A program made the position numbers and the translations under genes. From positions 1 to 20,540 of IMG/VR virus record IMGVR_UViG_3300020463_000178: 20,540 bases of DNA, one strand, 5' to 3'. Below the pieces are notes generated by a model, which made no database searches, was not told the origin of the DNA, and worked only from the letters and a program-made list of their open reading frames with translations. Each line of letters begins with the position of its first letter. Position 1 is the first letter of the stretch. The stretch is from a virus. Shown here piece after piece: positions 1 to 20,540 of this stretch.

Positions 1-1511
1 CTTAGGTTTCCATCAGCAAAATCTTTGGCTACATCTAATGTAGTGTATTTTGGATTATCTGCGTTGCTGTCGTTATGATATTTCACAGAGAAATCTAGCA
101 TCTCTTTAGTGGTTCTAAAGTTAACACCGGATCTAATCTTTTCTATAATATCCAGGTTAGTAAAGTATTGACTATCCGGACTACTATCTAAGTTAAATAT
201 TCGTGTGTTGATAGTTGTTAGCTGATTTACAATGGTATCTTTGTTATCACTATCTGCTTTAAGTAATGACATAACTTTACCAAAAGCAAATTGATTTTCA
301 TCTATTTCTATGTTTCTTAATTTTACAGCCTGGTCATCTCTATCAATAATGAACTTGTCATTATCAATAATAAATCCCCTCATTTTCTCCAGGGCATTTA
401 GCATTTGAGTTTCATCCATAGTAATTAATGCGTTCATTACTTTCTTTGGTAGTGTGTTTAATATCTTCCGGTCAGCCTCAGTACTAGCTGAATATTCCCC
501 ATTCTTCTTATCTTTAAGTTTAATAAGTACAGCCACAGCCTTCTGTGTATTGCTGTATAGATCATCCGGTTTTTTATTTGTAAGTAATGCTGAATTGAGA
601 ACAGTTAAACTTGCGTTAAATATGTTATCATTAAACTCTTTACGCAGACCTTCTATGTTAGATACATCTACCTCGTTCTCTATTGCTAGGTTTAGAAACT
701 CCTTAAATACAAAATCATAATATGATTTAGATCTAAAATGTTTAGCTGCTAATTCTCCTTTAGATTTTATCTCCGGTGGTATTTTAGGATCTTGTAGTAC
801 ATCTCCACCACCTTCATACATAATATTTTTATCTAGATTGTTAAAAAATATTTCCTTAGATGCTGCAAATAAAAGTTTCTTTTTCTTTTTCGCAGCAGCG
901 ATCTCAGTATCCATAAAGGAATTGAGCTGCGTGTATCCAAACAATCCAAGATCTGCGTTAAGTGATTTACCTAATCTTACATCACTATCTGAAATAGCAT
1001 CTGTTAGACCTTCTACGATAGCCTCTACCTGTGGTTTTACTTCTGCATATTTTTTATTATCAAGCTCTGCCTGTTGTAGTAAAGCCAGGATCTTCTTTTT
1101 ACCAAAGACCTTCATAGTGTCTAATGATTGTGCTAGATAATATTCATTAGCTGTAGTGCCAAAGATACTATAACTATCTCCTGGTCCACTTACTTGTTTC
1201 TTTTCTCGTTCTGCTAATGATTGTTGTTCATCTGTCCTATCTTCTTCTTTGATAGCCTTGGCATCATCAATCTGTTTATTCCAATTGTAGATTGTTTCTA
1301 GCTGTTCCATATCCGGAGCTTGTTCTACTCCATATACTTTAGCTCTTTCTTTTGCCACTCCCTGTAGGCTCTCAAAAACAAACTTGTTCATTGAGGCTAG
1401 ATCTGATGCGATCTGCTGTTGATAATTGACTAGACTTTTCTCAGCAGCAAAACTAGGTGTAGGTATTTCTAACCTGGTAAGCCTTCGTCTATATCTTGGG
1501 AGCTCTGCCAT
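1..1511 (-). CDS. Large internal virion protein, N-terminal part (cut by left edge)
   Basis: An open frame starts at ATG 1511-1509 and stays open for 503 codons to base 3, so the C-terminus lies outside the window. The N-terminus (MAELPRYRRRLTRLEIP) and the long, charged, helix-rich body without signal peptide or membrane segment resemble the large internal virion (ejection) proteins of marine podoviruses, positional equivalents of T7 gp15/gp16. It follows the 240-aa core-protein gene by 6 bp and lies downstream of tail tube B, which is the T7 order. A weak AAGG lies 10-13 bases before the start, so expression probably depends partly on coupling. The function comes from position and general character, not from a recognised catalytic motif. 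A tail fibre is less likely because the sequence is not repetitive or beta-rich. Confidence 0.72.
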   Translation of the reverse strand, partial: MAELPRYRRRLTRLEIPTPSFAAEKSLVNYQQQIASDLASMNKFVFESLQGVAKERAKVYGVEQAPDMEQLETIYNWNKQIDDAKAIKEEDRTDEQQSLAEREKKQVSGPGDSYSIFGTTANEYYLAQSLDTMKVFGKKKILALLQQAELDNKKYAEVKPQVEAIVEGLTDAISDSDVRLGKSLNADLGLFGYTQLNSFMDTEIAAAKKKKKLLFAASKEIFFNNLDKNIMYEGGGDVLQDPKIPPEIKSKGELAAKHFRSKSYYDFVFKEFLNLAIENEVDVSNIEGLRKEFNDNIFNASLTVLNSALLTNKKPDDLYSNTQKAVAVLIKLKDKKNGEYSASTEADRKILNTLPKKVMNALITMDETQMLNALEKMRGFIIDNDKFIIDRDDQAVKLRNIEIDENQFAFGKVMSLLKADSDNKDTIVNQLTTINTRIFNLDSSPDSQYFTNLDIIEKIRSGVNFRTTKEMLDFSVKYHNDSNADNPKYTTLDVAKDFADGNL

Positions 1512-1517
1512 AAAGTC

Positions 1518-2240
1518 TTATACCTTTTTAAATTCTATGTTGAGTTTGTCATAAAACACTTTCATTAGATCTTCAGACTTATCTACTGCATCCGGAAATC
1601 TTCTATCTACCTCTTGAGCTATAACTCCCTGGTAACGATCCGGATCTCCTTTGTAATTAAACTCATAGATGTTTAATCCTGTTTCCGGATCTATTTTTAT
1701 AAACTCTATATTTTCTTTAGCTGCGATATCACTTGTTTTGCTCATTGTAGGAAATGCATTAGGAAATGCCTTTGGTCCATATGTCATACCGGCACCAGCT
1801 ACCTTAGTAAGAACACCGGCAGCAGCTTTCTTGTTAGCTGCCTTTTCTGTATTCTCTGCTGCTACATTATAACTAGCCTGTTCGTACTTACCCATTTGTA
1901 ATGCGATAGTTGAGTTATCCCTGGCTATAGTAAAATCATTAACACCTTCTCTAAGGTTATATCCCATAAGAATATCTCCGGTATCTCCGGTAGATAATGG
2001 ATCAAAGTTTCCGGCCCCACCTTTTGCATTGATCACAGCCATATTCATATTAATTTGTTTAAGGACCTGGATACCTTCTTCTTTAAAATTCAATGCATCC
2101 TTTCTGCCTTTTACAACAGCAGCCTGTCCTTGAGCTCTGTATAGATCTGCCTCTACCTTTCCGGCATCCTTAGTTGCCTGGTATTCTAAAAATGTTCCAC
2201 CAATTGCTGCACCAATTAATGCTATCTCTACTCCACTCAT
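1518..2240 (-). CDS. Internal core protein (T7 gp14-like) with C-terminal S74 chaperone domain
   Basis: 240 aa. Residues 1-25 form an Ala/Gly-rich hydrophobic segment (IALIGAAIGG) and residues 26-165 are helical and Ala/Lys-rich, as in small ejected core proteins of T7-like phages. Residues about 168-220 look like a Peptidase_S74 intramolecular chaperone: SD at 170-171, KENI at 175-178, a YEFNY strand and GVIAQEV at 205-211. In endosialidase chaperones a Ser-Lys pair five residues apart cuts between Ser and Asp; Ser170 and Lys175 have that spacing. Cleavage would leave a 170-aa product, near the size of T7 gp14 (196 aa). A strong GGAGG precedes the ATG. It lies 8 bp after tail tube B. It could instead be a fibre-type protein, since S74 domains usually sit on fibres and spikes, but position and N-terminus favour a core protein. 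Confidence 0.75.
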   Translation of the reverse strand: MSGVEIALIGAAIGGTFLEYQATKDAGKVEADLYRAQGQAAVVKGRKDALNFKEEGIQVLKQINMNMAVINAKGGAGNFDPLSTGDTGDILMGYNLREGVNDFTIARDNSTIALQMGKYEQASYNVAAENTEKAANKKAAAGVLTKVAGAGMTYGPKAFPNAFPTMSKTSDIAAKENIEFIKIDPETGLNIYEFNYKGDPDRYQGVIAQEVDRRFPDAVDKSEDLMKVFYDKLNIEFKKV

Positions 2241-2248
2241 ATTACCTC

Positions 2249-4312
2249 CTATTGACCCACAGACACTTTGTAATCCAAACTAAGTACAGTTAGGAATACA
2301 GGTTGGTCCTGGCTAATTGTTATCTTTGCCTCTCGTTCAAAACCAAGAAAGCCTGGTGTTTTCTTTACTCCGGTAAAAGCAGTAACTCCTCCTATTCCGG
2401 ATACCGGTAGTGTCTTTAGAGGGATCTGCCTACCATTAATAGTAATGTTCTGCGTTTTATATAAAACAGGAGATACCTCTAAAATTCTTTTCTTTTGTCC
2501 TTGGATCGTTCCGGAAGGCAACCTGGTTTCTACAGGATTGGTTGTAACATTTATGCTGAATGGTAGACCGGCCTCAATATAACCTGTTGGTACATCTCCT
2601 ACTGTAATGTTGCCACCGGATACTGATACCTGGGGATCTATAATATCATCTCTAATTACATCTACTGTTTTGCCATTTATATGTGAGTATCCGGAATATG
2701 TCGTACCGGAAAACCCCGATATAATTTGGGCCCCACTATCTGTTGTAAAGTCGTCATCAAATACCTCTACAAAATATTTGGTAGCTCCACCTATTGTTCT
2801 TTTAACAACAACAAATATATCATCTAGATCTACTGAAACATCAGTAAATATACCATCAGTAACAAGTAATGATGGTGCTACAATGTTTTGTCCTTTGTTT
2901 AACATATAGGCAGCTATACCACCTACAGAGTTCGTAGAGGCAGCTCTATAACCGGAGCTGTCTGTTCCATTAAGGACCATAAGTAAATCGCCCTCAGTAG
3001 TATCTGTGGCCCTTCTAAGAGCTAATCTCTGTGGATCTACAATTAGATGCGATGCCAGGAGGGATATGTTGTTTGCCACATAAGATAATTCAACATCAGA
3101 GAACAGCAGCTCTCTAATACTTTTACCTTGTCGCTGAATAAATAATGTTCCACCTTCAGCAGCCTGGGGCCTAATATTTTCTTTAGCTCCTCTTTTGGTT
3201 GCTGATTTAATAACAATGTTACTAGGTGTAATAGGATCTAGATCTCCTTGGGGAACAAAGAACTCTGAGCCTGTGGTAAACACCTGGAGATCTCTACCGG
3301 ATCTGAGAGCTGTGATAGAGTTAACTTGGTCAGTAGCCAAGGTAACCTTTAATGCATCATCGTCTAATCCTTCTGATGCTTTGAAATTAAAAAAATCATT
3401 TACCTTAGATCCAAAGAGAGTTGATGGAAGGGATGCAGCTCCACCAAAATATAATCTACCTTCGTGAAACGTAGCTGTCTTAGGCCAACCTCTACTATCA
3501 CTCCAGGTATCTTCGTATCCTCTTTCAATAATATATGTATTACTTGCTACAGCACTTGTATCAAAAAATGGAACCTCAGTTATTCCTTTTACTTCTGTGC
3601 CGGATATAAACTGAGTTATTCTTAATCTACCAAATCCATCATCAACCTCAATAAACTGATCTATATCTGCACTTGTAAAGATACTAGATCCGGCTGTGAT
3701 TGTTACTGTACCATCTACTTTATCCGGTGTAATTGTTGTAGCCGGTCTAGTTGTTACAATAGTAAATGCGTGTTTTGGTATTGTTAAAGATCCGGCAAGA
3801 GATGTAGCTGACCAATCTTGATCTGTTGCACCACGCACCAAACTAAATGGCCTAAAATTTTCGTGTGTACAAATAACTGTATCTGCACTTTGTGTATAAT
3901 ATAATTTGTTAATATTAAAATCTGTTACGTTGTATAAAGTACCTACACCATAATCTAGATAATCATCTCCGGTTCCATTTATATTTGTTAGTAGTTGTTG
4001 GTTTTTATAAAACCTAAATCTAATCTTAGCATTAGGCATATTTGTTATAGTAGCTGATGCAACTACCATAAAGTTAGATGATGTACTAAATTCAAATGGG
4101 ATCAGCATATGTCCATTTTGTGGATTGTCTGATGTAATATCCTGGATAAACTTTAGTCCTGGTCTACGACTAAAACCACCTTGAGGTTCAAAGATAACAT
4201 TAGTAGCCTCTGATACACTTGAGTAGTATTGCTGTAGATCTATCCTTCCTCTTAATAAAGGATCTATTTCTCCAACAGTAAATGATGCCTGGTATTGCTG
4301 TACTCTACTCAT
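2249..4312 (-). CDS. Tail tubular protein B / tail nozzle (T7 gp12-like)
   Basis: 687 aa, close to podoviral nozzle proteins (T7 gp12 is 794 aa). The N-terminus has the family pattern: FTVGEIDPLLRGR (about residues 11-23), a YY and N-V-I-F segment, then GGFSRRPGLKFI (about 45-56). The rest is beta-rich with many short Gly/Thr/Asp turns and no signal peptide. Six copies of this protein normally form the distal part of the short tail, below the adaptor ring. Its ATG overlaps the stop of the upstream tail tube A gene in an ATGA junction (4309-4312), so the two should be made together. The next gene follows after 8 bp. Identification rests on the N-terminal motif, length and position. Confidence 0.9.
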   Translation of the reverse strand: MSRVQQYQASFTVGEIDPLLRGRIDLQQYYSSVSEATNVIFEPQGGFSRRPGLKFIQDITSDNPQNGHMLIPFEFSTSSNFMVVASATITNMPNAKIRFRFYKNQQLLTNINGTGDDYLDYGVGTLYNVTDFNINKLYYTQSADTVICTHENFRPFSLVRGATDQDWSATSLAGSLTIPKHAFTIVTTRPATTITPDKVDGTVTITAGSSIFTSADIDQFIEVDDGFGRLRITQFISGTEVKGITEVPFFDTSAVASNTYIIERGYEDTWSDSRGWPKTATFHEGRLYFGGAASLPSTLFGSKVNDFFNFKASEGLDDDALKVTLATDQVNSITALRSGRDLQVFTTGSEFFVPQGDLDPITPSNIVIKSATKRGAKENIRPQAAEGGTLFIQRQGKSIRELLFSDVELSYVANNISLLASHLIVDPQRLALRRATDTTEGDLLMVLNGTDSSGYRAASTNSVGGIAAYMLNKGQNIVAPSLLVTDGIFTDVSVDLDDIFVVVKRTIGGATKYFVEVFDDDFTTDSGAQIISGFSGTTYSGYSHINGKTVDVIRDDIIDPQVSVSGGNITVGDVPTGYIEAGLPFSINVTTNPVETRLPSGTIQGQKKRILEVSPVLYKTQNITINGRQIPLKTLPVSGIGGVTAFTGVKKTPGFLGFEREAKITISQDQPVFLTVLSLDYKVSVGQ

Positions 4313-4938
4313 CTCACATCAGTAAGCAGATAATCCCCAATAACACCAGGTGTCTGCCCCCCACTATCAATTGCACAAGCCTGTCTAAAAAATCCACCAC
4401 GCAGATTTTCTGTTGCTGTTCCTAACGCAACTGTTCTCCAATACTCAGCTTTAGTTGTTTGATCTGTAATTGCCTCTGCCATATGCCAGGCTAATTGATA
4501 TGCTAATAAGGTAACAAAGTAAGTAGGCATAGATCCTTCACTTACTATCTTTTGATAATCTATATGTATTTCTGTAGATCCTGTCATTAAGACAGCTCCA
4601 CCTTGAGAGCTCTGATTTATTTCCCAATTTTGTAGTAGAGCTCCTCCTGGAGTAGCTGTAGATCTAACAGCCTCCGGTACACCGGTTACCATATCGTTAG
4701 GTAACAAGTATTGATAGGTCCACTCAGAATTTGGTGTAACTGTATCTCTAGCTAATTGTTGTTTAGCTATGGTAAAACTCCAACGATACATACCTAATGT
4801 AGATAGCTTTACCTCTTTGTAGAGCTGTTTAGATATTGATGCCTGTGGAGTACCATCAGCAAAAGAGGTTATTGTTTCTGCACCCAGGAACAAAAGAGCT
4901 TTGTTAGTTATGCTTACATCTGTATCTCCGGCTGCCAT
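4309..4938 (-). CDS. Tail tubular protein A / adaptor (T7 gp11-like)
   Basis: 209 aa, typical for podoviral gatekeeper/adaptor proteins (T7 gp11 is 196 aa). The first 70 residues show the family pattern: ITNKALLFLGAETITSF, then a helix with LYKEVK and MYRWSFTIAKQQLAR. The middle has the usual YQYLLPNDMV segment, and a helical C-terminal part (YFVTLLAYQLAWHMAEAIT) probably packs against the portal. Twelve copies normally sit between the portal ring and the nozzle. The start is ATG with AAAGGA about 6 bases upstream. It lies 74 bp after the preceding small capsid gene, a gap that holds a strong hairpin, and overlaps tail tube B by 4 bp. Confidence 0.9.
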   Translation of the reverse strand: MAAGDTDVSITNKALLFLGAETITSFADGTPQASISKQLYKEVKLSTLGMYRWSFTIAKQQLARDTVTPNSEWTYQYLLPNDMVTGVPEAVRSTATPGGALLQNWEINQSSQGGAVLMTGSTEIHIDYQKIVSEGSMPTYFVTLLAYQLAWHMAEAITDQTTKAEYWRTVALGTATENLRGGFFRQACAIDSGGQTPGVIGDYLLTDVR

Positions 4939-4962
4939 ACAATTCCTTTCTTTTAAATCTTA

Positions 4963-4995: not shown

Positions 4996-5012
4996 CAAGT
5001 TGTTATCATAGC

Positions 5013-5294
5013 TTAGTCAGTATCTGTCTGAGCTATTGTTGTTCCATCACTAAGGTCAACTACGTTACTAGCATTACTCACAACTGTGTGAATTGATGCA
5101 GTAAGTGTTCCACCTGTAGATGCGTTTACGAATATGATATCGCCCACAGAAACATCCTGTGCAACATCATTCATATAGCCGGAGGCTCGTACTGTTGCCT
5201 GGCTATCTGTCGTAGTATAGGAGAACATCTGAGGAGCTGTGCCCTTCTTTGATTGTCCACCTATTGGATTCCATTGTTTACGATCAAAAGCCAT
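5013..5294 (-). CDS. Small capsid-associated protein (possible decoration protein)
   Basis: 93 aa. A 25-residue basic, polar N-terminus (MAFDRKQWNPIGGQS) leads to a compact beta-rich domain (about residues 35-90) with GDIIFV, alternating Val/Ser/Thr and a Gly-Gly turn; the end is acidic. It starts two bases after the major capsid protein stop and has a GGAGG Shine-Dalgarno, so it should be made at a high level with the capsid protein. Small beta proteins in this position often decorate or cement the head. No specific family is recognised, so the role is inferred from position and size. The only GANTC site found in the window (GATTC at 5267-5271) lies in its WNP codons. Confidence 0.6.
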   Translation of the reverse strand: MAFDRKQWNPIGGQSKKGTAPQMFSYTTTDSQATVRASGYMNDVAQDVSVGDIIFVNASTGGTLTASIHTVVSNASNVVDLSDGTTIAQTDTD

Positions 5295-5296: not shown

Positions 5297-6157
5297 TTAA
5301 GCCTCCCTACAAATTACATCTACAAGACCATCAGTATCAATAACTACTGATCCCATAGAAAGTTTACTCGTTACGAGGAACGATGTCTTTTCTGCAATGT
5401 AATTTACCTCCGTTGAAGGAGCTATTCCTACTGCCACACCAAGAGCTGATTGGTGGAAAGCAAAGCAAGTACGATCACTAGATCCACTTAGAGCCAAGCC
5501 TCCTTCATCCCTATCGCCCAGGATATGAAAGGTAAATCCCATCATAGTATTTACTGTTCCTTGTACTAAAGCCTGGATAGTCTGAAAATCAGAACTAATT
5601 GCTCTCTCATCTGAGAGTAGTCCGGCCAAAGTATTTGCGTGAATAATCATATGACGATTTTGCGATGGCACGTTTTTCTTGTCCAACTGCTTTTTCGCCT
5701 CAATGATTTTTCCTACGTTCAAGTTTGATGCTGCTGCTGTTCCGGATGTAACAACTGTATTAGCTACACTTGATCCGGCAGTAGCTGTAGACAATGCATC
5801 TAACATAATCTGATCTTGTCTACGGCCTATTGCGTTACCAACAACTGCTGCTAACTCTCGCCTCTCATCAAAGTTGATTTTTTGTTGCAAAAAGATATCT
5901 GAATATTCTGCTGCCACATAATCTGTGAGGCTACAGGATACAGAACTAAATGCAGTATTTAGTGGAACTACATCAGTAGCCGGTGTTCTCACACTAGCTT
6001 GTCCTTTTCCCACCTTGGGAAAGTTTACTGTAGATCCAACTACACCGGTTCTTGTTCTCGCTGCTCCTTGCAAAACTGCACTAGACTGATATGCCTGGTG
6101 TACTTCTGCATCAAACAGTTGAACAAATGCCGGAGATAGATTTGCTTGAGTGGTCAT
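5297..6157 (-). CDS. Major capsid protein (HK97-fold type)
   Basis: 286 aa, shorter than T7 gp10A (345 aa) but normal for small marine podoviruses. The protein has the order expected of an HK97-fold capsid: an N-terminal helix (PAFVQLFDAEVHQAYQ), the VNFPKVGKGQA strand near residue 45, a long central helix (LAAVVGNAIGRRQDQIMLDALS, the E-loop/spine region), an A-domain segment with MIIHANTLAGLL, and a C-terminal beta part with VITS/VVIDTDG. It has no cysteine-rich or membrane segments. The ATG is preceded by AGGAGG at an ideal distance, among the strongest ribosome sites in the window. It lies after a 319-bp gap following the scaffold gene and is followed after two bases by the small capsid-associated gene. 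Confidence 0.88.
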   Translation of the reverse strand: MTTQANLSPAFVQLFDAEVHQAYQSSAVLQGAARTRTGVVGSTVNFPKVGKGQASVRTPATDVVPLNTAFSSVSCSLTDYVAAEYSDIFLQQKINFDERRELAAVVGNAIGRRQDQIMLDALSTATAGSSVANTVVTSGTAAASNLNVGKIIEAKKQLDKKNVPSQNRHMIIHANTLAGLLSDERAISSDFQTIQALVQGTVNTMMGFTFHILGDRDEGGLALSGSSDRTCFAFHQSALGVAVGIAPSTEVNYIAEKTSFLVTSKLSMGSVVIDTDGLVDVICREA

Positions 6158-7298: not shown

Positions 7299-7587
7299 TT
7301 GCTCTCCTTATACGTTGCTCTATTTCACGAACTATTGAGTTTTGGCCTTCTCTAGAATAACCTATGGATGCCTCTGCACCTGGTATCCAGGATGGTTGTT
7401 CTATAGTAACCTTTCTCAAATACTCTAATACCTTTTTACCATCTTTTGTATCAAATGTCTTTTTAAAAGAAATATCTAATCCTAGCTCTTGATCTCTGTT
7501 AGATACTCTTAATGTTTCTACATTTGAATTAACTCCATCCCATCCAGGAGAGTTAATATCTCTAATCTTATCTGCCTGGTTCCTCAT
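7282..7587 (-). CDS. Bbp19-like head protein
   Basis: 101 aa. The region from about residue 43 (FDTKDGKKVLEYLRK) to 92 (SREGQNSIVREIEQRI) follows the Bbp19-type pattern: a short segment ending in G.KVL..L, a variable middle, then an EGQ.S.V..I helix. Proteins of this family are found between portal and scaffold genes in podoviruses; their exact role is not known to me. The gene is coupled on both sides, with an ATGA overlap with the portal gene and a 17-bp overlap with the scaffold gene. The family assignment is from memory of the pattern, so moderate confidence for the name and high confidence that the gene is real. Confidence 0.7.
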   Translation of the reverse strand: MRNQADKIRDINSPGWDGVNSNVETLRVSNRDQELGLDISFKKTFDTKDGKKVLEYLRKVTIEQPSWIPGAEASIGYSREGQNSIVREIEQRIRRANEPSK

Positions 7588-9161
7588 CCTTGTACCTCGC
7601 CTTCTTCAACCGGTGGAGCTCCTCCTTCTTGTTGGTTCATCTGAGCTCCTTGCATTTGCCCCATAGCCTGGGCCTGTTGCTGCATCTGTTCCATTAAGGC
7701 TTGTTTCTCTTCCGGTGTGTTTCTTAACCTAGCATCTATTCCCATCTGATCCAGGATATAATCAGCAATAGCATCTGTCTTTAGAGCCATCATTCCACTA
7801 GCTCCTAATCCTTGTGCTATTTGCATATACTGAAATAATGGTTGTAGTTTGCCCATATTACTTGCCATAGCTAATTCAGATACAGGCTGAATAGTAACCT
7901 GTAGTCCATCAATCTTTAATGGGAGCTCTATCATTCCCATTTCATCCATTAGCTGTAGTGTTCTTCTAACAATTGGAAACATTGTTTCATTGATCAATCT
8001 TCCAAAAGCAGATCCCAGGTTCTGAGATAGATCAGACATCCTGGCCTGGATCTCTAATGCTGTTCTTGGATTTCCTGTTTCCGGTGGTAGTCCTTCATCT
8101 AACAATGCTTTTTTAACAGACATTCTTAATGTGTTTGCATTTATCTCTGATAGCTGTGGATCTCCGGATCTAGGTAATGGTGCAAGACTAGGACCTCTAC
8201 CACCTCCGTTACTTGACACACCTATGATAGCACCAGGCTGTATCTTAATTGTCTGAGGATTTAGAACACCATCATCTACTGCTGTAAACACACCACCAAT
8301 ACTTAGTGATGCATTTTTAAGAGTGAGCTCCATAACTTTATTTAAAGATTTGATATCCGGTAAAGCATACAGGCAAGGACCTCTTCCATAAACTTCTCCG
8401 GCTACTGTCATATACCTGGACACTACAAAAGGCATTGACTTTAATTTTCTATCAACGATCTTAAAATCTAACTCCATAGTTTGTAAGCAGTAATAAACTT
8501 GATTATCTTTTTTGTATGATACCTCTAGCAGCTCTACATTTGATTGTGGTTTTTCTTTATACTTATCTGCTAATTCTTTTGGAATTTTAGCATCCGGATA
8601 TTCTTGCTGTATTACCTCAAAAGGTCTTTTAAATTTTCTGTATACATAACCAACACCACCATCCGGTCCTTCATCAAAAGATATTTGATAAAGTGGTATT
8701 GATGTATATTTGATTGGAACATCTCCTGTTCCTGGTTGGATCAGCATACAGGCTGTGCCTACTGCTAGATCTAAAAGAAACTCTCCCAGGGCAAGATCAA
8801 ATCCGGATTGCCTCATTACAGAAAACATTTTATCTGCGTAGAGATCTAAAACTTGCTGTGCCTGGATCTTGTTGTCCGGTGGCACATCTTCCCCTGGCAT
8901 CAACCTACACCAATTTTGTTGGGGAGGAAAAAGGGCAGATTGAATTTTATTAGCAAATCTTGATGTAGAGTGCATAGCTGTACTATCAAACACTCTTTTC
9001 ATTTTATCTTGGCCTGGTGTACTATCCATCTCATAGTAACCATCATAAAGATTTCTCATAGGTAGGCAGAACTCATATGCCTCTTCGTATATGGTTCTCC
9101 ATTGCTCTTTTCTAGCTTGAGCTATTTTATATCTTTTTTTTATTTCTTTTGGATTTAACAC
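7584..9161 (-). CDS. Portal / head-to-tail connector (T7 gp8-like)
   Basis: 525 aa, the size of T7 gp8 (536 aa). The N-terminus carries the family helix pattern (KKRYKIAQARKEQWRTIYEEAYEFCLP), then RVFDSTAMHSTSRFANKIQSALFPP near residues 57-81. The C-terminal 60 residues are Gln/Met/Glu-rich and probably line the channel or crown. Twelve copies would form the vertex through which DNA enters and leaves. The start is GTG at 9161, whose G is shared with the TAG of the upstream 52-aa gene (TAGTG), with GGGAAG just upstream, so translation is probably coupled. It ends in an ATGA overlap with the Bbp19-like gene. Confidence 0.92.
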   Translation of the reverse strand: MLNPKEIKKRYKIAQARKEQWRTIYEEAYEFCLPMRNLYDGYYEMDSTPGQDKMKRVFDSTAMHSTSRFANKIQSALFPPQQNWCRLMPGEDVPPDNKIQAQQVLDLYADKMFSVMRQSGFDLALGEFLLDLAVGTACMLIQPGTGDVPIKYTSIPLYQISFDEGPDGGVGYVYRKFKRPFEVIQQEYPDAKIPKELADKYKEKPQSNVELLEVSYKKDNQVYYCLQTMELDFKIVDRKLKSMPFVVSRYMTVAGEVYGRGPCLYALPDIKSLNKVMELTLKNASLSIGGVFTAVDDGVLNPQTIKIQPGAIIGVSSNGGGRGPSLAPLPRSGDPQLSEINANTLRMSVKKALLDEGLPPETGNPRTALEIQARMSDLSQNLGSAFGRLINETMFPIVRRTLQLMDEMGMIELPLKIDGLQVTIQPVSELAMASNMGKLQPLFQYMQIAQGLGASGMMALKTDAIADYILDQMGIDARLRNTPEEKQALMEQMQQQAQAMGQMQGAQMNQQEGGAPPVEEGEVQG

Positions 9162-10036: not shown

Positions 10037-10543
10037 CTATTTCTCCTTATCATAATATTTTGCAAACATTATATAATCATCTCCAAGGATACCATATTTG
10101 CGTAAAATACCCTCTTCTATGAATTTACACGATTTCGCCCATTTCACAGCACGAATATTTCTAGAACAAACTGTGAACTGTAGCCTGTTTAATTGCATTA
10201 TGTTCGCAACATATTCAAAAAACTGTAGTGATACTTTGTGAAATACCATAGCTTTTCTATTAATGTGTTTACTTGGGATTAAAAAAAATTCTGCATTACC
10301 TTTCCATAACTGATAAAATCCAAAGATTGCATAGATCGTACCTTCTGATAATCCTGTGTATGCTAACCCTCGTTGAGTATAGCCGGATAAGTAATGTCCA
10401 TAATCCGGAAAATGTTTTTTATATTCCTCATCAAAAGGATTTAGATCTAGCATATGATAATGCACAGGATCAAAAGTAACTATCTTGTCCGGCTCTTTTA
10501 AGAATGGACAATAATCTTTTTTAAAATTATCAAGAGAAAACAT
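10037..10543 (-). CDS. GNAT-fold protein (T7 gp13-like)
   Basis: 168 aa from ATG 10543. A TTG at 10546 has slightly better spacing to an AAAGG, so a 169-aa form is possible. The segment GTIYAIFGFYQLWKGNAEFFLIP is a typical GNAT beta-4 region, and the end (NIRAVKWAKSCKFIEEGILRKYGILGDDYIMFAK) is the classic GNAT closing pattern: N-x-x-A-x-x-W-A-x-x-x-x-F-x-x-E-G. Phage_T7_Gp13-type proteins are GNAT-like and help virion assembly in T7; whether this one acetylates anything is unknown. It overlaps the end of TerL by 14 bp. Confidence 0.72.
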   Translation of the reverse strand: MFSLDNFKKDYCPFLKEPDKIVTFDPVHYHMLDLNPFDEEYKKHFPDYGHYLSGYTQRGLAYTGLSEGTIYAIFGFYQLWKGNAEFFLIPSKHINRKAMVFHKVSLQFFEYVANIMQLNRLQFTVCSRNIRAVKWAKSCKFIEEGILRKYGILGDDYIMFAKYYDKEK

Positions 10544-12071: not shown

Positions 12072-12074
12072 TGC

Positions 12075-12227
12075 CTATACTCCAAAAAAATGAGCCGGAT
12101 ATCTTAGATACTCTAACCATTCAACTATCAAGATACCGGCCAATAAGATTACTATTACTGTGTGGTACAAATTCCATAAGACCTCGTACCTATTTTCCTT
12201 TATGGATTTAATTAACCTTCTCTTCAT
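12075..12227 (-). CDS. Small one-TM protein between TerS and TerL
   Basis: 50 aa, ATG 12227-12225 to TAG 12077-12075. A basic N-terminus (MKRRLIKSIKENR) leads to one hydrophobic helix (about residues 22-37, VIVILLAGILIVEW) and a short tail. By the positive-inside rule the N-terminus should face the cytoplasm. The start overlaps the upstream stop in an ATGA junction, which strongly supports a real gene. In T7 the lysis genes 17.5 (holin) and 18.5 (spanin) flank terS, so a lysis role is possible, but the tail is too short for a spanin and a 3TM holin is present elsewhere. Function unknown. Confidence 0.72.
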   Translation of the reverse strand: MKRRLIKSIKENRYEVLWNLYHTVIVILLAGILIVEWLEYLRYPAHFFGV

Positions 12228-12475
12228 AACAAACTCTTCTGTCTAGGATCTACAGGATCCCACGCAAAATAATAGAGCTCGTTAGTAGAGCCGGTAAACT
12301 TATCCGGAATATTGGCTATCCTTACAGGCTTATCTAATCTACTATTAGCGACAATCATATGCCGGTCCTGGTAGACGATTTTAAGGTCTTTATTTTTTTC
12401 TTTTGCCTTTGCTATGTACTTTCCCTGGATTGGGGCCAGGTTGTTCCATAGTGTCTTTATTTTCTTCTGTATCAT
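12224..12475 (-). CDS. Small unknown protein in terminase operon
   Basis: 82 aa from ATG 12475, chosen because AAGGAAAG lies just upstream; a longer frame from 12535 would deepen the overlap with TerS. The N-terminal third is basic and helical (MIQKKIKTLWNNL, YIAKAKEKNKDLK), the middle has alternating hydrophobic strands (LKIVYQDRHMIVAN) and the end carries YYFAWDPVDPR. It overlaps the Lys-rich end of TerS by 86 bp and the small membrane gene by 4 bp. No family recognised. The position suggests a packaging or lysis accessory, without direct evidence. Confidence 0.6.
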   Translation of the reverse strand: MIQKKIKTLWNNLAPIQGKYIAKAKEKNKDLKIVYQDRHMIVANSRLDKPVRIANIPDKFTGSTNELYYFAWDPVDPRQKSLL

Positions 12476-15164: not shown

Positions 15165-15614
15165 ATGTATATATTTTCAACAGACCACAGAGTAAACGAG
15201 GTTAGATGTGCTGACCATAATAAGACCGGCAGAAATTGGAGAGTTAAATTGGTATTCAAAGGCGATAAGTATGGCCTGGATAACTGCCTTACTCACGATG
15301 AGGATGAGCCAATGGTAGAGTTCTATGATCTACATTATCCGGAAACATTTGGAACAGATGGTAATTTTGTTTCCAGGTATAACCTTGGCACTATCTTGTT
15401 TGAAGGCTGTGCTCTTTCCAGGTCAGAGCTGATGAACGCAGATGAGAGAGATCCGGAGTATGGTATTGATCTGCAAGGCGATGTTGATGGATGGAAGATG
15501 TCTGCTGATTGTCTTAATGAGGTATTGGAACAGATCAAAATCTTCTACATTAAAAATCAGTTAGCTCCTTCATATTCCCCAAAAGAATTTTTTAGTTTTG
15601 CCAATGCTAACTAA
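15165..15614 (+). CDS. Unknown protein, first gene of the plus-strand operon
   Basis: 149 aa, ATG with AGGAGG five bases upstream, among the strongest ribosome sites in the window. The protein is acidic and rich in aromatic residues. Recognisable pieces are STDHRVNEVRC, a KYGLDN turn, PMVEFYDLHYP, and GNFVSRYNLGTIL near residues 66-78. A weakly amphipathic helix follows (ADCLNEVLEQIKIFYIKN). I recall similar small phage proteins with a V-S-R-Y-x-L segment but no named family. As the first gene behind the divergent switch it is probably expressed early, perhaps as a takeover factor. This is inference from position only. Confidence 0.75.
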   Translation: MYIFSTDHRVNEVRCADHNKTGRNWRVKLVFKGDKYGLDNCLTHDEDEPMVEFYDLHYPETFGTDGNFVSRYNLGTILFEGCALSRSELMNADERDPEYGIDLQGDVDGWKMSADCLNEVLEQIKIFYIKNQLAPSYSPKEFFSFANAN

Positions 15615-15621
15615 TAACATC

Positions 15622-15650: not shown

Positions 15651-15672
15651 AAATACAAAGGAGAAACATAAT

Positions 15673-16362
15673 ATGAAAAAAGCTAATGCAGTAATCAGAG
15701 TAAGTACTGATAAACAGGATAGCAACAATCAAAAGTTTGCTATCACAAGAGCTCATCCGGATACTGAGTTTACTTGGTTTGTTGAGGATGATGTATCCGG
15801 TGGATTGTCCTGGGATAAAAGACCTGTACTCCTGGATGCAATAAGATCTTCCAGGAAAAATAAAATACCATTGGTAGTTTATTCTTTATCCAGGTTAGGA
15901 AGAACATCTGAGATCGCTACCTTTTGGGAACAGAACGTAGCCAATAAAAAGATCCAGGTATCTGTAGTAGATATGCCACAGCTAGATGACAAGATGGTAG
16001 GTGGTATTGCCTGGATAAATTCTATGGAGAGAAAGGTTATCTCTGAAAGAACTAAGGTAGCTATGTCTAGGATCAAAGAAGAGATAGCTCTTAATGGATC
16101 ATACAAGACCAAGGAAGGCAATGTAATTACTAGCCTTGGTGGAACATCCAATAAGAAGGCAAGTGCTGTAGGCAATGCTCAGATCCAGGCCAACGCAGAT
16201 AAGTTTGCATCCAATGTATTACCTTTGATCCAATCATTGAAGGACCAGGGATTATCTTTGAAGGCAATAGCTGAAGAGTTAAATGAAAGACAGATTAAAA
16301 CTAGAAGAGATACTGAGTGGTATGCCTCTTCTGTTTCCAACATATTAAGGAGGGCAGCATAA
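15673..16362 (+). CDS. Small serine recombinase (resolvase/invertase family)
   Basis: 229 aa. The N-terminal catalytic domain has AVIRVSTDKQDSNNQ with the nucleophile Ser11 and Arg9, the SRLGR motif with Arg74 and Arg77, and a long helix containing SERTK (124-128). The usual Asp before the first Arg of the LDRLGR motif is Ser here. The C-terminus is a helix-turn-helix (GLSLKAIAEELNER, then ASSVSNILRR). The size is that of resolvases and invertases, not of large serine integrases (over 400 aa). It may resolve dimers or multimers, invert a segment or integrate DNA; I found no crossover sites. AAGGAG lies nine bases before the ATG. It opens a run of four coupled genes. Confidence 0.9.
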   Translation: MKKANAVIRVSTDKQDSNNQKFAITRAHPDTEFTWFVEDDVSGGLSWDKRPVLLDAIRSSRKNKIPLVVYSLSRLGRTSEIATFWEQNVANKKIQVSVVDMPQLDDKMVGGIAWINSMERKVISERTKVAMSRIKEEIALNGSYKTKEGNVITSLGGTSNKKASAVGNAQIQANADKFASNVLPLIQSLKDQGLSLKAIAEELNERQIKTRRDTEWYASSVSNILRRAA

Positions 16363-16517
16363 TGAGATGGACTATAAAAGATATCCTGGTAGGGATAGTT
16401 GAGATGGTTGCGATGGTAGGATTGTTCGCAGCCATTTATTTATTTGCAGTAATGATGTGTGCAATTAGTGATAAGTGTGCAGCATATTATGGAATGATAC
16501 CAGGAGGATCAATATGA
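16362..16517 (+). CDS. Small one-TM protein between recombinase and exonuclease
   Basis: 51 aa, starting at ATG 16362-16364, which shares one base with the recombinase stop (TAATG); AGGAGG lies upstream. A frame starting earlier (16317) would overlap the recombinase and is less likely. After a short amphipathic start, residues 7-36 form a long hydrophobic segment (GIVEMVAMVGLFAAIYLFAV), then a Cys-containing polar tail (MMCAISDKCAAYY). It ends in an ATGA overlap with the exonuclease. The role is unknown; an early membrane protein could affect superinfection or the host membrane, but nothing in the sequence shows this. Confidence 0.65.
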   Translation: MRWTIKDILVGIVEMVAMVGLFAAIYLFAVMMCAISDKCAAYYGMIPGGSI

Positions 16518-17494
16518 TAACGAGTAAGTTTACAAAGCTAGGAATGGATCTATCATCATCAGAGATAGCTGATATTGTCCTGGGAGAAACTGCCTTTAGC
16601 AGTTGTCATAAAGTTTATGACCAACATTTAATGGCAGTAAAAGATGTAGAGGTTATGTCTGAGAGAAGAACCACACCGGCTATGATCAGAGGTTTATTCC
16701 TGGAAGGATCTGTAGCTGATTGGTTTTATTATCTGCTATGCCAGGAGGTAAAGGATCTTGATATTACTATTGAGATGTTAGATCCCCAGGATGCATCCAG
16801 GCCACAGGATTATAATCCGGACCTGGCTAAGTATGGACTAGGTGCTAGTGTAGATAGGATCCTGGTATGTAGTGACGATGTTACAGTAGTTGTAGCCGGA
16901 TTTACTTTCCATCTAAAAAAGGGAAAAAATATCCTGGAGATTAAGACAGACTACTACCACACCGGCAAGTGTAAACCGGAGTGGCAGATCCAGGTACAGC
17001 ATCAGATGATCTGCACCGGTACTCAATGTGGGATCATTGTATGTAAGGATCAGACCGGTAAGTTAAACATCTATCAATCCAACATCAATGAGAAGATGTG
17101 TAAGTTGATAATGAAAAAGGCAGAGGACTTTTGGAGGAGGATAGATGATGAGGATCCTTATCCACCTATCATTAAACAGGAGGACCAGGGCCTCAGATCT
17201 AAAGCCTTGGATGAAACTATACTCAAGAAAACTAATCAAGATGTAGTGCAGCTCACAGAGGACTACCTGGTAGCCTCAGTTGAGGAGAGGAAGTGGAAGA
17301 AAACTAAGGACAAGTTAAAGGAAGATCTATCTGATGTTCTTGATAGCCTGGACCTAGACGTTCTTACAATACCAGGACAATTCCAAATAAAATCTCATTA
17401 CTCTGAGGTGGAAAAATATACTATTGAAAAGAAACCTACCGGAGTTATGAGAGAACAACATTCATTTACAGTAAAGGAGATAAAGGATGAATAA
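16514..17494 (+). CDS. YqaJ-like 5'-3' exonuclease (Red-type recombination)
   Basis: 326 aa from ATG 16514, chosen because AGGAGG lies seven bases upstream and the ATG overlaps the preceding stop (ATGA); a longer frame from 16475 would run into the small membrane gene. The lambda-exonuclease fold is shown by FLEG with Glu64, GASVDRIL with Asp114, LEIKT with Glu142 and Lys144, and the PEWQIQVQHQM helix that follows in YqaJ nucleases. The C-terminal 120 residues are charged and helical. It should resect double-stranded ends for the RecT-like protein encoded next, with which it overlaps by 8 bp. Confidence is high for the PD-(D/E)XK fold and good for the pairing. Confidence 0.88.
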   Translation: MITSKFTKLGMDLSSSEIADIVLGETAFSSCHKVYDQHLMAVKDVEVMSERRTTPAMIRGLFLEGSVADWFYYLLCQEVKDLDITIEMLDPQDASRPQDYNPDLAKYGLGASVDRILVCSDDVTVVVAGFTFHLKKGKNILEIKTDYYHTGKCKPEWQIQVQHQMICTGTQCGIIVCKDQTGKLNIYQSNINEKMCKLIMKKAEDFWRRIDDEDPYPPIIKQEDQGLRSKALDETILKKTNQDVVQLTEDYLVASVEERKWKKTKDKLKEDLSDVLDSLDLDVLTIPGQFQIKSHYSEVEKYTIEKKPTGVMREQHSFTVKEIKDE

Positions 17495-18437
17495 AATTAT
17501 TACAACGTCAGCAGAAGGACTAGCTATGTATATGAACTTGGCAGAGAAACTATCCAAGGCAGAGCTTGTTCCTAATCAGTACAGAGGTAAACCTAATAAC
17601 ATATTGGTAGCTATCCAATGGGGAATGGAGCTAGGCCTTACACCTATGAGAGCTCTACAATCTATCGCTATAATAAATGGTAAGGCATCTATCTATGGAG
17701 ATGAATTGCTAGGCCTGGTTAAATCTCATCCGGCCTTCAGAGGATGTGAAGAAAAGGTAAAGGATGATGTAGCTACCTGTACTATCAAGAGAGATGTAGC
17801 CGGAGAGATGGAGGTTACTGAGAGAACCTTTAGTAAGGATGATGCAATTAAATCTAAACTGTGGGGCAAGGCCGGACCCTGGCAGCAGTATCCGGATCGT
17901 ATGTTACAGATGAGAGCTAGAGGCTTTGCAATTCGTGATGCATTTCCGGATGCCATCAAGGGGATAATCACTTATGAGGAGTTAAGAGATTACCCCCAAG
18001 AGGCACAGGGAGGAAATATTAAAGTAGCTGTAACACCTAGTGATGCAGAGGATCTAGATGCATTGGCCAACAAACTTGAGGCTCCTGTTCTTGAGGATCA
18101 ATCCTCAGAGAAACTCACACAGGAATTATTCATACCAGGAAAGGAAAGCAAAACCTTTGATAATGAACACACCTGGTGTGATGAGTTTGCTCAAATCTTG
18201 ATAAGTGTAACACAGGTATCTCATTGGACCTATGAAACAAAGAAGGAAAAAGTAGACACATTCGTAAAAGCAAACAGCAATGTTCTTGCAAACGTACAGG
18301 ATCAAGATCTTAAAAAAGAAATAACAGAGAAGATCCATAAGTTTTATGAATACATAGAACAAGAGGAGCACCACGCACAGGAAAGCCTCAATGCTATGGC
18401 TGATGAAATGGATAGTAGAGGAGAGCCGGATGAATAG
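17487..18437 (+). CDS. recT: RecT-family single-strand annealing protein
   Basis: 316 aa. Residues about 38-78 (ILVAIQWGMELGLTPMRALQSI, then INGKASIYGDELLGLV) and about 130-168 (WQQYPDRMLQMRARGFAIRDAFPD, then GIITYEEL) are the hallmark blocks of RecT proteins. The C-terminal third is acidic and linker-like, possibly an SSB- or host-contact tail. It would anneal complementary strands behind the exonuclease encoded directly upstream. The ATG has AAGGA close upstream and the gene overlaps both neighbours by 8 bp. No frameshift or truncation seen. Confidence 0.9.
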   Translation: MNKIITTSAEGLAMYMNLAEKLSKAELVPNQYRGKPNNILVAIQWGMELGLTPMRALQSIAIINGKASIYGDELLGLVKSHPAFRGCEEKVKDDVATCTIKRDVAGEMEVTERTFSKDDAIKSKLWGKAGPWQQYPDRMLQMRARGFAIRDAFPDAIKGIITYEELRDYPQEAQGGNIKVAVTPSDAEDLDALANKLEAPVLEDQSSEKLTQELFIPGKESKTFDNEHTWCDEFAQILISVTQVSHWTYETKKEKVDTFVKANSNVLANVQDQDLKKEITEKIHKFYEYIEQEEHHAQESLNAMADEMDSRGEPDE

Positions 18438-18669
18438 ACAAGGCCTTACACCACAGCAGCACCAGGTATATCAGTACATCAGATCTTACTACACAGAGTA
18501 TGGTTACTTTCCTACACAGCGAGAGATAGCCATAGGTAAGTTAGATGGAGAACAGGTTATACCTCACAGAAAATCTCCGGCTAGTATACATAGAATAGTA
18601 AACACCCTGGTGGAGAAAGGATGGTTATATAAAACACCAGGCAATGCTAGAGCACTAGAGTTTGTTTAG
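18430..18669 (+). CDS. LexA-type winged-helix protein (no protease domain)
   Basis: 79 aa from ATG 18430 with GAGGAG seven bases upstream; an earlier ATG at 18391 would lie deep in recT. The sequence LTPQQHQVYQYIRSYYTEYGYFPTQREIA, then SIHRIVNTLVEKGWL and a closing RALEF follow the LexA DNA-binding domain, including the G-Y-x-P-T-x-R-E-I motif. The LexA catalytic domain is absent, so it cannot self-cleave. It could control the recombination operon or mimic a host SOS operator binder. Its stop interlocks with the stop of the convergent amidase gene (18666-18669). Confidence 0.8.
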   Translation: MNRQGLTPQQHQVYQYIRSYYTEYGYFPTQREIAIGKLDGEQVIPHRKSPASIHRIVNTLVEKGWLYKTPGNARALEFV

Positions 18670-19091
18670 ACCGGAGCTACTATTGGTTCATTGTATTCTG
18701 ATCTTGCATCAAAGGATGGACAATCCTTATCTGCAAAATCTCTATGACCATAGACCATAATGTTAGGATACTCTTCTTTGATATCCTCAATGAGATCTTC
18801 CAGGGCAATGCGTTGTGCATCTGTCCTGGTATCTTTTGATTTCATATCTTTATCTACACCACCTATGTAACAGATACCTATGTTGTGGTTCTCTCCAATT
18901 GTGTGAGCTCCACTTGTACCAACAGCTCTACCTTTATGGATAGATCCATCTAGCTCTATTACAAAATGATATCCAATATCTCTCCATCCATTATCCTCAA
19001 CGTGCCACCTTTTGATCTCAGATGTTTTAACATCCCTACCTTCCGGTGTAGCTGAACAATGAACAATGATCTTATCAATAGACCTAGCCAT
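18666..19091 (-). CDS. N-acetylmuramoyl-L-alanine amidase (T7 lysozyme-like endolysin)
   Basis: 141 aa, near T7 lysozyme (151 aa). The Amidase_2 zinc site is complete: His11 (IIVHCSAT), His116 (YGHRDF) and Cys124, with Tyr41 (GYHF) and Lys122 at the T7 catalytic spacing. It should cut the bond between muramic acid and the peptide stem and release progeny. There is no signal peptide or SAR helix, so a holin is needed to let it out. The ribosome site is weak, so it may rely on coupling to the upstream gene 1 bp away. T7 lysozyme also inhibits T7 RNA polymerase; no such polymerase is in the window, so that role is not assumed. Confidence 0.93.
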   Translation of the reverse strand: MARSIDKIIVHCSATPEGRDVKTSEIKRWHVEDNGWRDIGYHFVIELDGSIHKGRAVGTSGAHTIGENHNIGICYIGGVDKDMKSKDTRTDAQRIALEDLIEDIKEEYPNIMVYGHRDFADKDCPSFDARSEYNEPIVAPV

Positions 19092-19092
19092 A

Positions 19093-19488: not shown

Positions 19489-19491
19489 AAC

Positions 19492-19704
19492 TTATCCTTT
19501 CTTTTTTGTTCTAACTAAATCTGCATCAGCCTTTCTAACTGTTGCCTTACCTTTTGCGTGAGCTTTTAATCTTGCCACTCCCCAACTGTAAGCTGATTGT
19601 CCAGGCCTGGACCCACTACTATAGAAGGCCCCCATACCACGTTTCATTATCTTGTCTGCTTTCTCTTTACCAAACATCTTTCTATATTTTTCCGGAGCTG
19701 CCAT
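19492..19704 (-). CDS. DUF5824-like small protein
   Basis: 70 aa. The core GMGAFYSSGSRPGQSAYSWGVARL (about residues 23-46) follows the pattern G-x-G-A-x-x-S-S-G-S-R-P-G-Q-x-x-x-S-W-G-x-A-R that I associate with DUF5824 proteins of marine and environmental phages, and an Ala-Asp-x-Asp-Leu tail follows. Highly basic (Lys/Arg). No catalytic residues are evident. It is joined to the upstream gene by TAATG at 19706-19702 and lies 3 bp before the next gene. Family by memory; the function is unknown to me. Confidence 0.72.
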   Translation of the reverse strand: MAAPEKYRKMFGKEKADKIMKRGMGAFYSSGSRPGQSAYSWGVARLKAHAKGKATVRKADADLVRTKKKG

Positions 19705-20006
19705 TATGCTTTGTCCTTTGCTCTAGCCTTTGAGATCCTATCCATCTCCTCCGGTGTTAGTGTTCCATCCTTATACTGTTGAGCTGTAGATACTAGCTCA
19801 GACATTCTTAGTCTTTTATTCTTAGATCCGGATACATATTTCTTTGGAACCTTTGTACCTTTTACTTTAGCTACAGGTTTAAATCTTTTACTGCCTGTGT
19901 TTTTCTTTTTCTTCATCATATCTCTAACCTCATCAGCTCCTCGCTGTGTAGGTTTGAGAACGAAACCAATAAGTTTGGAAAATTTTTTATCATTCTTTTC
20001 TGCCAT
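19704..20006 (-). CDS. Basic unknown protein with VPKKYVSG segment
   Basis: 100 aa, strongly basic. The order is a short hydrophobic start, KPTQRGADEVRDMMKKKK, a Lys-rich linker, then GTKVPKKYVSGSKNKRLRMSELVSTAQQYKDGTLTPEEM. The combination V-P-K-K-Y-x-S-G plus R-x-x-E-x-x-x-x-x-x-x-Y-x-x-G is one I recall from small marine phage proteins of unknown function. TAATG junctions on both sides tie it to its neighbours. Placing three such proteins between holin and endolysin is unusual for a lysis cassette. Possibly nucleic-acid-binding because of its charge; not demonstrated. Confidence 0.65.
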   Translation of the reverse strand: MAEKNDKKFSKLIGFVLKPTQRGADEVRDMMKKKKNTGSKRFKPVAKVKGTKVPKKYVSGSKNKRLRMSELVSTAQQYKDGTLTPEEMDRISKARAKDKA

Positions 20007-20182
20007 TACTTATTTATCCTATCTATAAAATTATATATCCTTCCAATCTGCTTATCTATATTTAACAATTCATTCTGCATCATACTAACTAATGTTTGTA
20101 ACTCTACTAGTGTTACTAATACCCAGGTTGATATGCCCATAAGAACTGCACCAACAAAAGGTATTAACAAATTTTGTTTCAT
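20006..20182 (-). CDS. Small membrane protein next to the holin
   Basis: 58 aa, ATG 20182-20180 to TAA 20008-20006. One hydrophobic helix spans residues about 5-27 (LLIPFVGAVLMGISTWVLVTL), followed by an amphipathic helix (LVSMMQNELLNIDKQIGRIYNFI) that could form a coiled coil. It is joined by TAATG to the holin gene upstream and again by TAATG to the gene downstream, strong evidence that it is real. It might be an antiholin, a second holin or a spanin-like part, but no lipobox is present. Confidence 0.75.
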   Translation of the reverse strand: MKQNLLIPFVGAVLMGISTWVLVTLVELQTLVSMMQNELLNIDKQIGRIYNFIDRINK

Positions 20183-20540
20183 TACTTTTTCATATTCTCC
20201 CTGGCTACACCTTTACTCTTCTCCCAGGATCTCATTCCGGACAATCCTAATAATGCCATTGTTAAACTGATTAATCCCTCAGTATTAATATCCGGCATAG
20301 GATAATCTGATCCTGTAATAAGAAGGATCCAATGTAACAATGGTTGTAGGAAGAAGGACCACCCTAGACCTAGAGCACAGATCCACATTATGGAGGGCCT
20401 AGCTCCGGCCACAAATAAGGAAGGATGTTTGGATTGTTCTAGGTTTACCTGGATCTGTCCGTTGTCCAGGGCAATCATTTCTTTTTTTAATTCGTGATTT
20501 AGTTTTCGCTTGAGATCTTTATCCTCAACAAATTTGTCCA
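20182..20540 (-). CDS. 3TM holin (GTA-holin-like), 5' end beyond right edge
   Basis: At least 119 codons. An internal ATG at 20478 would give 98 aa, but the frame stays open upstream to base 20540 with a charged helix (DKDLKRKLNHELKKE), which fits the usual N-terminal helix of this family. So the gene most likely begins outside the window. The core has LFVAGARPSIMWICALGLGWSFFLQPLL, a second hydrophobic stretch, then LISLTMALLGLSGMRSWEKSKG. The FVAG-x-RP motif, hydrophobic segments and final (R)-x-x-E-K are the pattern of GTA_holin_3TM proteins. It would open the inner membrane for the amidase encoded further along the same strand. Confidence 0.78.
   Translation of the reverse strand, partial: DKFVEDKDLKRKLNHELKKEMIALDNGQIQVNLEQSKHPSLFVAGARPSIMWICALGLGWSFFLQPLLHWILLITGSDYPMPDINTEGLISLTMALLGLSGMRSWEKSKGVARENMKK

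Follow-up and report, generated by a model that had tools for sequence, protein, structure and literature searches.

The window, by which we mean the whole stretch of 20540 bases analysed here, raises the question of what removed certain short words from its sequence. The original prediction held that CATG, TCGA, GCGC and CGCG are missing, and exact counts over all 20540 bases were 0 for each of them, so that CATG and TCGA fall well below even a handful of sites. GCG was followed solely by A or T, as had also been claimed, because GCGG is likewise 0. The chance figures put forward match base composition (71, 71, 29 and 29 for the four words in that order). The first-order Markov expectations (86.3, 30.9, 11.3 and 4.6) and the means of 300 synonymous-codon shuffles (36.9, 31.5, 9.5 and 2.8) are lower for TCGA, GCGC and CGCG. 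These shuffles covered 29 coding regions (18795 nt), kept the protein and the codon use, and did not reproduce the zeros. CATG contains no CpG and still has the shuffle mean given above, so CpG depletion does not explain its loss, as had been argued. CATG and TCGA are therefore far under chance, and GCGC is clearly under it. CGCG alone is uninformative in the window because its shuffle mean is just 2.8; it occurs 0 times in a 31.7-kb relative (G001), 0 times in a 32.6-kb genome of a sister lineage (G002), and 26 times in phage MEP301. Codon choice follows the rule that had been described. Where the next codon begins with G, all 11 histidines use CAC, whereas 53 of the 78 other histidines use CAT; CACGAT (15294..15299) and CACGCA (18372..18377) lie where they had been placed, and none of the 158 ATG codons is preceded by a codon ending in C.

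Most of the missing words had been overlooked, and the effect is larger than originally described. The near-absent words and the sites that remain are as follows.

1..20540, both strands: near-absent tetramers (7 of 19 words), CATG, TCGA, GCGC, CGCG, CCGC, CCGA and CCCG
1..20540, both strands: near-absent 5-mers (12 of 19 words), ACTGG, CACTG, CCAGA, CCAGC, CCTGA, CCTGC, GAAGC, GAATC, GACTC, GAGAC, GGGAC and GGTGA
1795..1799, plus strand: the sole CCAGC, from the word count
2715..2719, plus strand: the sole CCGA (at 2716) and the sole CCCG, overlapping in CCCCGATA, with CCCG read off the context of CCGA
5267..5271, no strand assigned: the sole GANTC site, GATTC, from the word count

The 19 words together occur 4 times in the whole window, and the same 4 sites lie in coding sequence, where the shuffles gave a mean of 555.6 (range 513-614). 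Besides the four palindromes, CCGC, CCTGC, CCTGA, CCAGA, ACTGG, GGTGA, GAGAC, CACTG, GAAGC, GGGAC and GACTC have a count of zero, and CCGA, CCCG, CCAGC and GAATC occur once each. Among the 14 asymmetric words, 11 are absent from both strands and 3 have one site on one strand and none on the other. The avoidance is not strictly all-or-none, since CCGT occurs 7 times and several further words are merely reduced. These results establish that the words are actively avoided in the window.

Judged by its sequence, the window comes from a marine podovirus, kin of the Methylophilales phage MEP301 (MW452941; PMC8024684), and probably makes up a large share of the genome, about two thirds. Its terminase, portal, capsid and tail genes are homologous to those of MEP301 and, by eye, stand in the same order. 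The long open reading frames are unbroken.

2249..4312, minus strand: tail protein (PHROG 376, E 5.8e-110), 46% identical to the MEP301 protein at the place of tail tubular protein B
4309..4938, minus strand: tail protein (PHROG 394, E 7.3e-27), 47% identical to the MEP301 protein at the place of tail tubular protein A
5297..6157, minus strand: major head protein (PHROG 3437, E 1.6e-46)
7584..9161, minus strand: head-tail adaptor or portal protein, 525 aa (PHROG 332, E 4.3e-82)
10530..12071, minus strand: terminase large subunit (TerL), 513 aa (PHROG 2, E 1.7e-20), 58.4% identical to that of MEP301 over the full length
12072..12389, minus strand: stretch 5' of terL; the window record gave no match to PF00145
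12390..12875, minus strand: terminase small subunit (PF03592, E 2.7e-6)
15673..16362, plus strand: small serine recombinase (PF00239, partial PF07508)
16511..17494, plus strand: YqaJ/RecE-like exonuclease (PF09588; the longer frame starting at 16475 matches PHROG 434)
17487..18437, plus strand: RecT-like single-strand annealing protein (PHROG 561, E 2.3e-42)
18666..19091, minus strand: amidase endolysin (PHROG 822, E 8.9e-58)

Despite this likeness, the first 20 kb of MEP301 contain zero forbidden words at the threshold used for the reference phages. Sites of the 19 words number 1147 in MEP301 (34774 bp) versus 3 in G001 (31675 bp), a close relative of the window that obeys the rule with only these 3 exceptions. 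The same kind of word avoidance is thus absent from MEP301.

Very probably, selection by the many restriction endonucleases that the lineage met over time has stripped the window of their recognition sites. The missing words would be sites cut by Type II-like enzymes, often of the Type IIS kind, in bacteria that the lineage needed as hosts, and the survivors would be the genomes free of those words. Certain words may share one enzyme, and GAATC and GACTC may be cut by one, as GANTC. Three observations point to restriction enzymes: the absence from both strands, which double-strand cutters require, the match of many words to a list of recognition sites, and the differing sets in related phages. 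Forbidden 5-mers were found on a site list for 45 of 64 words, compared with 197 of 3828 testable non-forbidden 5-mers; the list (Type IIS, Type III and split-palindrome sites) is not REBASE, some of its entries were added once the words had been seen, and the nine phage records compared were picked for having forbidden words and are not independent. Five of the 12 forbidden 5-mers of G001 (CCAGA, CCAGC, CCTGA, CCTGC and GAAGC) are missing from that list. Per 20 kb, 15 words are forbidden in the window versus 0-8 in thirteen reference phages. The hosts of Helicobacter phages carry many restriction systems. These phages have just 0 and 2 forbidden words, which counts against the restriction reading. 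The original prediction had ascribed the avoidance to several host restriction systems. Avoidance and the involvement of enzymes are supported; "several" is probably too few for 19 words, and the assignment of the enzymes to hosts is unsupported.

The sister lineage, with a TerL identity of 86%, shares many zeros with the lineage of the window and has swapped others. CCAGA occurs 0 times and CCWGG 218 times in one lineage, versus 121 and 3 times in the sister. The letter after CCAG is G in 147 of 148 cases in the window and in all 218 in G001, and A in 121 of 125 in G002. It is possible, if unlikely, that a CCAG or CCG core is cut everywhere unless a host methyltransferase protects it (as CCWGG and CCGG), and that the setting of the sister protects CCAGA. 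Such a scheme would account for the letter after CCAG and would require fewer enzymes. However, CCTGT is tolerated, with 65 sites in the window, and CCAGT and CCAGC are near-missing in both lineages (0 and 1 in the window, 1 and 0 in G002), so separate enzymes explain the CCAG pattern equally. Losses of CCWGG also exceed gains (see below).

G002 encodes a 345-aa Dcm-type cytosine-5 methyltransferase directly 5' of terL and tolerates CCGA, CCGT, CCCG, CCAGA, GAGAC and ACGCC. Phages of the SPbeta group carry multispecific cytosine methyltransferases. The enzyme of G002 resembles these in being phage-borne and Dcm-type, and could protect words rather than remove them; the window, G001 and L003 differ in having no PF00145 match. 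PF05869 matched 0 of 9 phage records, the window included. PF01555 matched 0 of 8 and 0 of 31, and PF02086 0 of 31; G001 was among these records and the window record lay outside the sets. Carriage of a cytosine methyltransferase was not significantly associated with fewer forbidden words over 31 records (p = 0.23; 7 records with and 24 without, one 10-kb piece per record). A host was sought through terL. The first scan of genome contigs gave no match, and the second gave 61 loci, mostly on MAG contigs, the best of them (69%) in a MAG and none above 43% outside MAG-labelled records. Eight MAG bins with relatives had 0-3 PF00145 and 0-3 PF01555 matches each; bin membership proves no host. The methyltransferase counts in the eight bins, for two families, are far short of the number needed. 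Neither the terL scans nor these counts found a host with a matching restriction enzyme.

It is very improbable that the phage itself makes nucleases specific to these words, with which it degrades host DNA, and lacks the words so as not to cut its own genome. The words vary by lineage, as the gene content of phages may, but restriction-type nuclease families were unseen among the window proteins scanned, 20 with PHROGs and 10 with Pfam (part of the open frames). Pfam found none in 8 proteins of G001 (part of the open frames in half L156) and 2 of G002 either, several of the scanned proteins being without any match. The scans instead matched the YqaJ exonuclease, the serine recombinase and a RusA/DUF1064-type resolvase; the last also had a match to the I-TevI DNA-binding domain below threshold (E 0.0013). 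A genome of about 32 kb would also be small for encoding so many specificities.

Mutation bias, CpG depletion or codon preference is scarcely credible: CpG words are generally low, as the Markov expectations for GCGC and CGCG show, but the CpG-free words CATG, CCTGA, CCAGA, ACTGG, GAAGC, GGTGA and CACTG are all 0 where codon-preserving shuffles predict 24-48 each, and CCGG, which bears a CpG, is over-represented. An assembly or library artefact, such as a restriction digest ahead of sequencing, is just as hard to credit, since the records are metagenome contigs but the reading frames are intact, contigs from five samples (L002, L003, L004/L082, L005 and L083) lack a near-identical set, and related phages of one sample (3300020430, by contig name) contain CATG 0 (L003), 20 (L015) and 37 (L029) times. 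Absent-word sets differed among related phages in a survey of loci of at least 15 kb, each trimmed to 15 kb, whose rows are not independent because some records contributed more than one locus; the close-relative comparison omitted loci below 3500 bp.

CCWGG, CCGG and GATC are over-represented in the window. These excess words and the methyltransferase of the sister both lie beyond the original account. Gains and losses were counted in four phages over the genes common to all four (9231 columns). CCGG (0 gains, 7 losses), CCAG (5 and 14) and GATC (7 and 19) had the three lowest ratios of gain to loss, in that order, among the 76 tetramers that have 50 or more sites, and CCAGG (1 and 11) had the lowest among the 51 pentamers that have 30 or more. 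The two-sided p values, uncorrected and from small counts, were 0.016, 0.064, 0.029 and 0.006, respectively; regression alone tends to make abundant words lose more than they gain. The excess of CCGG needs no separate selection, as codon use and forbidden neighbours suffice (117.5 expected, 126 seen), and present-day selection for CCWGG is disfavoured by its losses. Very-short-patch repair, which would deplete CTWGG as CCWGG rises, is also less likely as the cause of the CCWGG excess, because CTWGG stays close to expectation in the window (CTAGG 27 seen versus 29.6 expected, CTTGG 39 versus 42.1), although CTTGG is in G001 (51 versus 70.2, z -3.5; CTAGG 36 versus 38.8). In G008, the values were 30 versus 34.0 for CTAGG and 58 versus 63.1 for CTTGG. 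Less certainly, CCWGG, CCGG and GATC may be the landing places of earlier escape mutations, now drifting away, and such scars would be expected to be lost more often than gained. We tentatively suggest, at somewhat less than even confidence, that the genome is a layered record in which absent words reflect the enzymes of recent hosts and decaying excess words reflect earlier escapes.

Loss of single sites is a textbook phage counter-defence. It has been reported that dsDNA phages remove recognition words and thereby escape Type II enzymes, with exclusion in 3.9% of the phage-site cases studied (Rusinov et al. 2018, PMC6286503). In the window, by comparison, nineteen words, for the most part asymmetric, are nearly gone jointly. 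The marine Pelagibacter phages HTVC019P, HTVC011P and Hodr also lack words (8, 7 and 6 in 20 kb), but fewer than the window and in other sets. A literature search outside most subscription journals found no account of such avoidance in marine phages. Restriction-site avoidance is already known; so many words missing together is unusual.

These results indicate that avoidance can go well beyond what the thirteen reference phages show, and that it can turn over among near relatives, part of the set being swapped at 86% TerL identity. If the restriction reading is true, the absent words are a culture-free read-out of marine restriction, and traces of earlier selection may be preserved in the excess words. 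If the genome is indeed a layered record, related phages would carry readable successive layers of the restriction repertoires of their hosts, and these layers could reveal hitherto unknown enzymes in uncultured marine bacteria.

The original prediction was that CATG, TCGA, GCGC and CGCG are absent from the window, and exact counts were indeed 0 for each. The numbers expected from base composition, a first-order Markov model and codon shuffling (300 synonymous, protein-preserving shuffles of 18795 coding nt) were 71, 86.3 and 36.9 for CATG; 71, 30.9 and 31.5 for TCGA; 29, 11.3 and 9.5 for GCGC; and 29, 4.6 and 2.8 for CGCG, respectively. Against the codon-shuffle control, the proposed avoidance was certain for CATG and TCGA and clear for GCGC, but CGCG was uninformative in the window, where 2.8 sites are expected. 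Histidine codons before G were CAC in 11 of 11 cases, as had been claimed, and none of the 158 ATG codons was preceded by C.

The full set of missing words was larger. In strand-symmetric counts, CCGC, CCTGC, CCTGA, CCAGA, ACTGG, GGTGA, GAGAC, CACTG, GAAGC, GGGAC and GACTC were also at 0, and CCGA, CCCG, CCAGC and GAATC occurred once each. These 19 words together had 4 sites in coding sequence, compared with 513-614 (mean 555.6) in the synonymous shuffles, a deficit of roughly one site for every 34 bases. Since the whole window also held 4, there were none in its 1849 non-coding bases. CCGT (7 sites) and AGTC (31 versus 82.5 expected from codon shuffling) were merely lowered. In 15-kb simulations, second-order Markov models gave zero forbidden words (words far below expectation at a set threshold) in five of five runs, and third-order models, which carry over the absence of the missing 4-mers, gave 3-5, compared with 15 in the real sequence. 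The number of words is not the number of enzymes: GAATC and GACTC may be a single site, GANTC, and CCGC, CCGA and CCCG may be related to one another.

The window carries a podovirus gene set (terminase, head-tail adaptor, major head protein, tail proteins, RecT, YqaJ-type exonuclease and amidase). Its nearest named phage in the searched collection was the Methylophilales phage MEP301 (58.4% in the terminase large subunit, TerL), and megablast against the phage collection gave no match. Close relatives in IMG/VR had TerL identities of 97-100%, and records of relatives extend to 31-35 kb, so the window covers, at a guess, about two thirds of a genome. The features observed were as follows.

Window record: virus contig, 20540 bases.
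14201-14668: frame that encodes a DnaA C-terminal helix-turn-helix domain (PF08299, E 1.2e-16) and overlaps a DUF1064/RusA-like gene read in another frame; its product may be a phage replication protein.
15673-16362: short serine recombinase in which just the initial part of the Recombinase domain is present; the close relative G001 has a similar gene, and the MEP301 annotation includes a recombinase gene.
L156:6906-8918 (tail region of G001): protein with RCC1-like repeats.

In G001 (31675 bp), CATG, TCGA, GCGC, CGCG, CCGC and CCGA were each at 0, and the 19 words had 3 sites in all. Further close relatives held CATG twice (L005, 11.7 kb), CCAGA once (L003), and CCGA and GGTGA once each (L083). 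The sister genome G002 (32619 bp; TerL 86%; 70.5% of nucleotides identical across 14682 aligned positions of L084) was likewise at 0 for CATG, TCGA, GCGC, CGCG and CACTG. Other words differed between G002 and G001: CCGA (116 versus 0), CCCG (88 versus 1), CCGT (71 versus 19), CCAGA (121 versus 0), GAGAC (39 versus 0) and ACGCC (28 versus 0), whereas CCWGG occurred just 3 times in G002 versus 218 in G001. GCTGA was an additional missing word of the sister lineage (0 in L158/L159 of G002 versus 44.6 expected under a constrained null, which preserves protein and codon use while excluding the forbidden words). More distant members had word sets of their own, or none. In a tally that tests 6-mers as well, the relative G008 lacked 21 words in 32.5 kb, G001 lacked 18 and G002 lacked 15. 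GATC was among the 21 in G008 (L166/L167), where CCWGG was in excess.

The sister lineage carries a methyltransferase gene, which record L007 shares at the same position.

L240:1486-2520 (frame G002:20899-21966), directly 5' of terL in G002: Dcm-type cytosine-5 methyltransferase, 345 aa.

Over its first half, the best-scoring solved relatives were M.HhaI and then M.HaeIII. A tblastn search with this protein picked up sequences 24-41% identical to it in other relatives, several at other locations, and no PF00145 match was found in the window, G001 or L003. Words missing from the window lineage are tolerated by the genome that carries the methyltransferase, which fits protection by methylation; a host change would do the same. 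Among 31 records, the 7 with and the 24 without a PF00145 gene did not differ significantly in forbidden-word number (p = 0.23). A DNA methylase has been reported for the OM43-clade phage Melnitz (PMC9004378).

Other words were in excess in the window coding sequence compared with codon shuffling: CCWGG (137 versus 32.3), CCGG (126 versus 38.6) and GATC (159 versus 104). The constrained null accounted for CCGG (117.5 expected) but not for CCWGG (63.4) or GATC (111.5). CCWGG was also in excess in G001, G008 and the relative G005, and GATC in G001, G002 and G005; MEP301 showed neither excess. On the terminal branches of an alignment of the window, L003, L005 and L082 of G001 (9231 columns), CCGG had 0 gains and 7 losses, CCAG 5 and 14, and GATC 7 and 19; these gain/loss ratios were the bottom three of the 76 tetramers that had 50 or more sites. 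CCAGG, with 1 gain and 11 losses, ranked lowest of the 51 pentamers that had 30 or more. These low ratios suggest that the excess accumulated in the past and now seems to be decaying, although the counts are small and uncorrected. The sister had CCAGA where the window had CCGGA at 19 of 55 aligned sites, and transition-type escape mutations of this kind could have given rise to the excess words. Very-short-patch repair retains a small chance of being the source of the CCWGG excess.

Restriction is the likely reason for the avoidance. The words were missing from both strands of the window. Forbidden 5-mers matched Type IIS/III and split-palindrome sites in 45 of 64 cases, compared with 197 of 3828 testable non-forbidden 5-mers, in nine non-independent phage records picked for having forbidden words and with a site list partly prompted by the words seen. 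For these reasons the nominal p-value of the comparison is not to be read literally. Contigs from one and the same sample include some with the words present, which argues against a digest artefact. In two scans of reference genomes for the host, the only finds were remote relatives or MAG contigs whose membership is uncertain.

At the threshold also used for G008, G001 and G002, the window had 15 forbidden words in 20 kb, whereas the Pelagibacter phages HTVC019P (L234), HTVC011P (L235) and Hodr (L154) had 8, 7 and 6. These three lack words although the host named in their records is strain HTCC1062. The numbers were 3 for HMO-2011 and SIO1; 2 for T7, lambda, HTVC010P and Helicobacter phage 1961P; and 0 for KHP30, BcepC6B, Pmp11 and MEP301. 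Restriction-site avoidance is already known (PMC6286503), and the window falls within it. The window stands out from known avoidance in how many words are affected, in how large a share of them is asymmetric, in the swap between sisters and in the apparently decaying excess.
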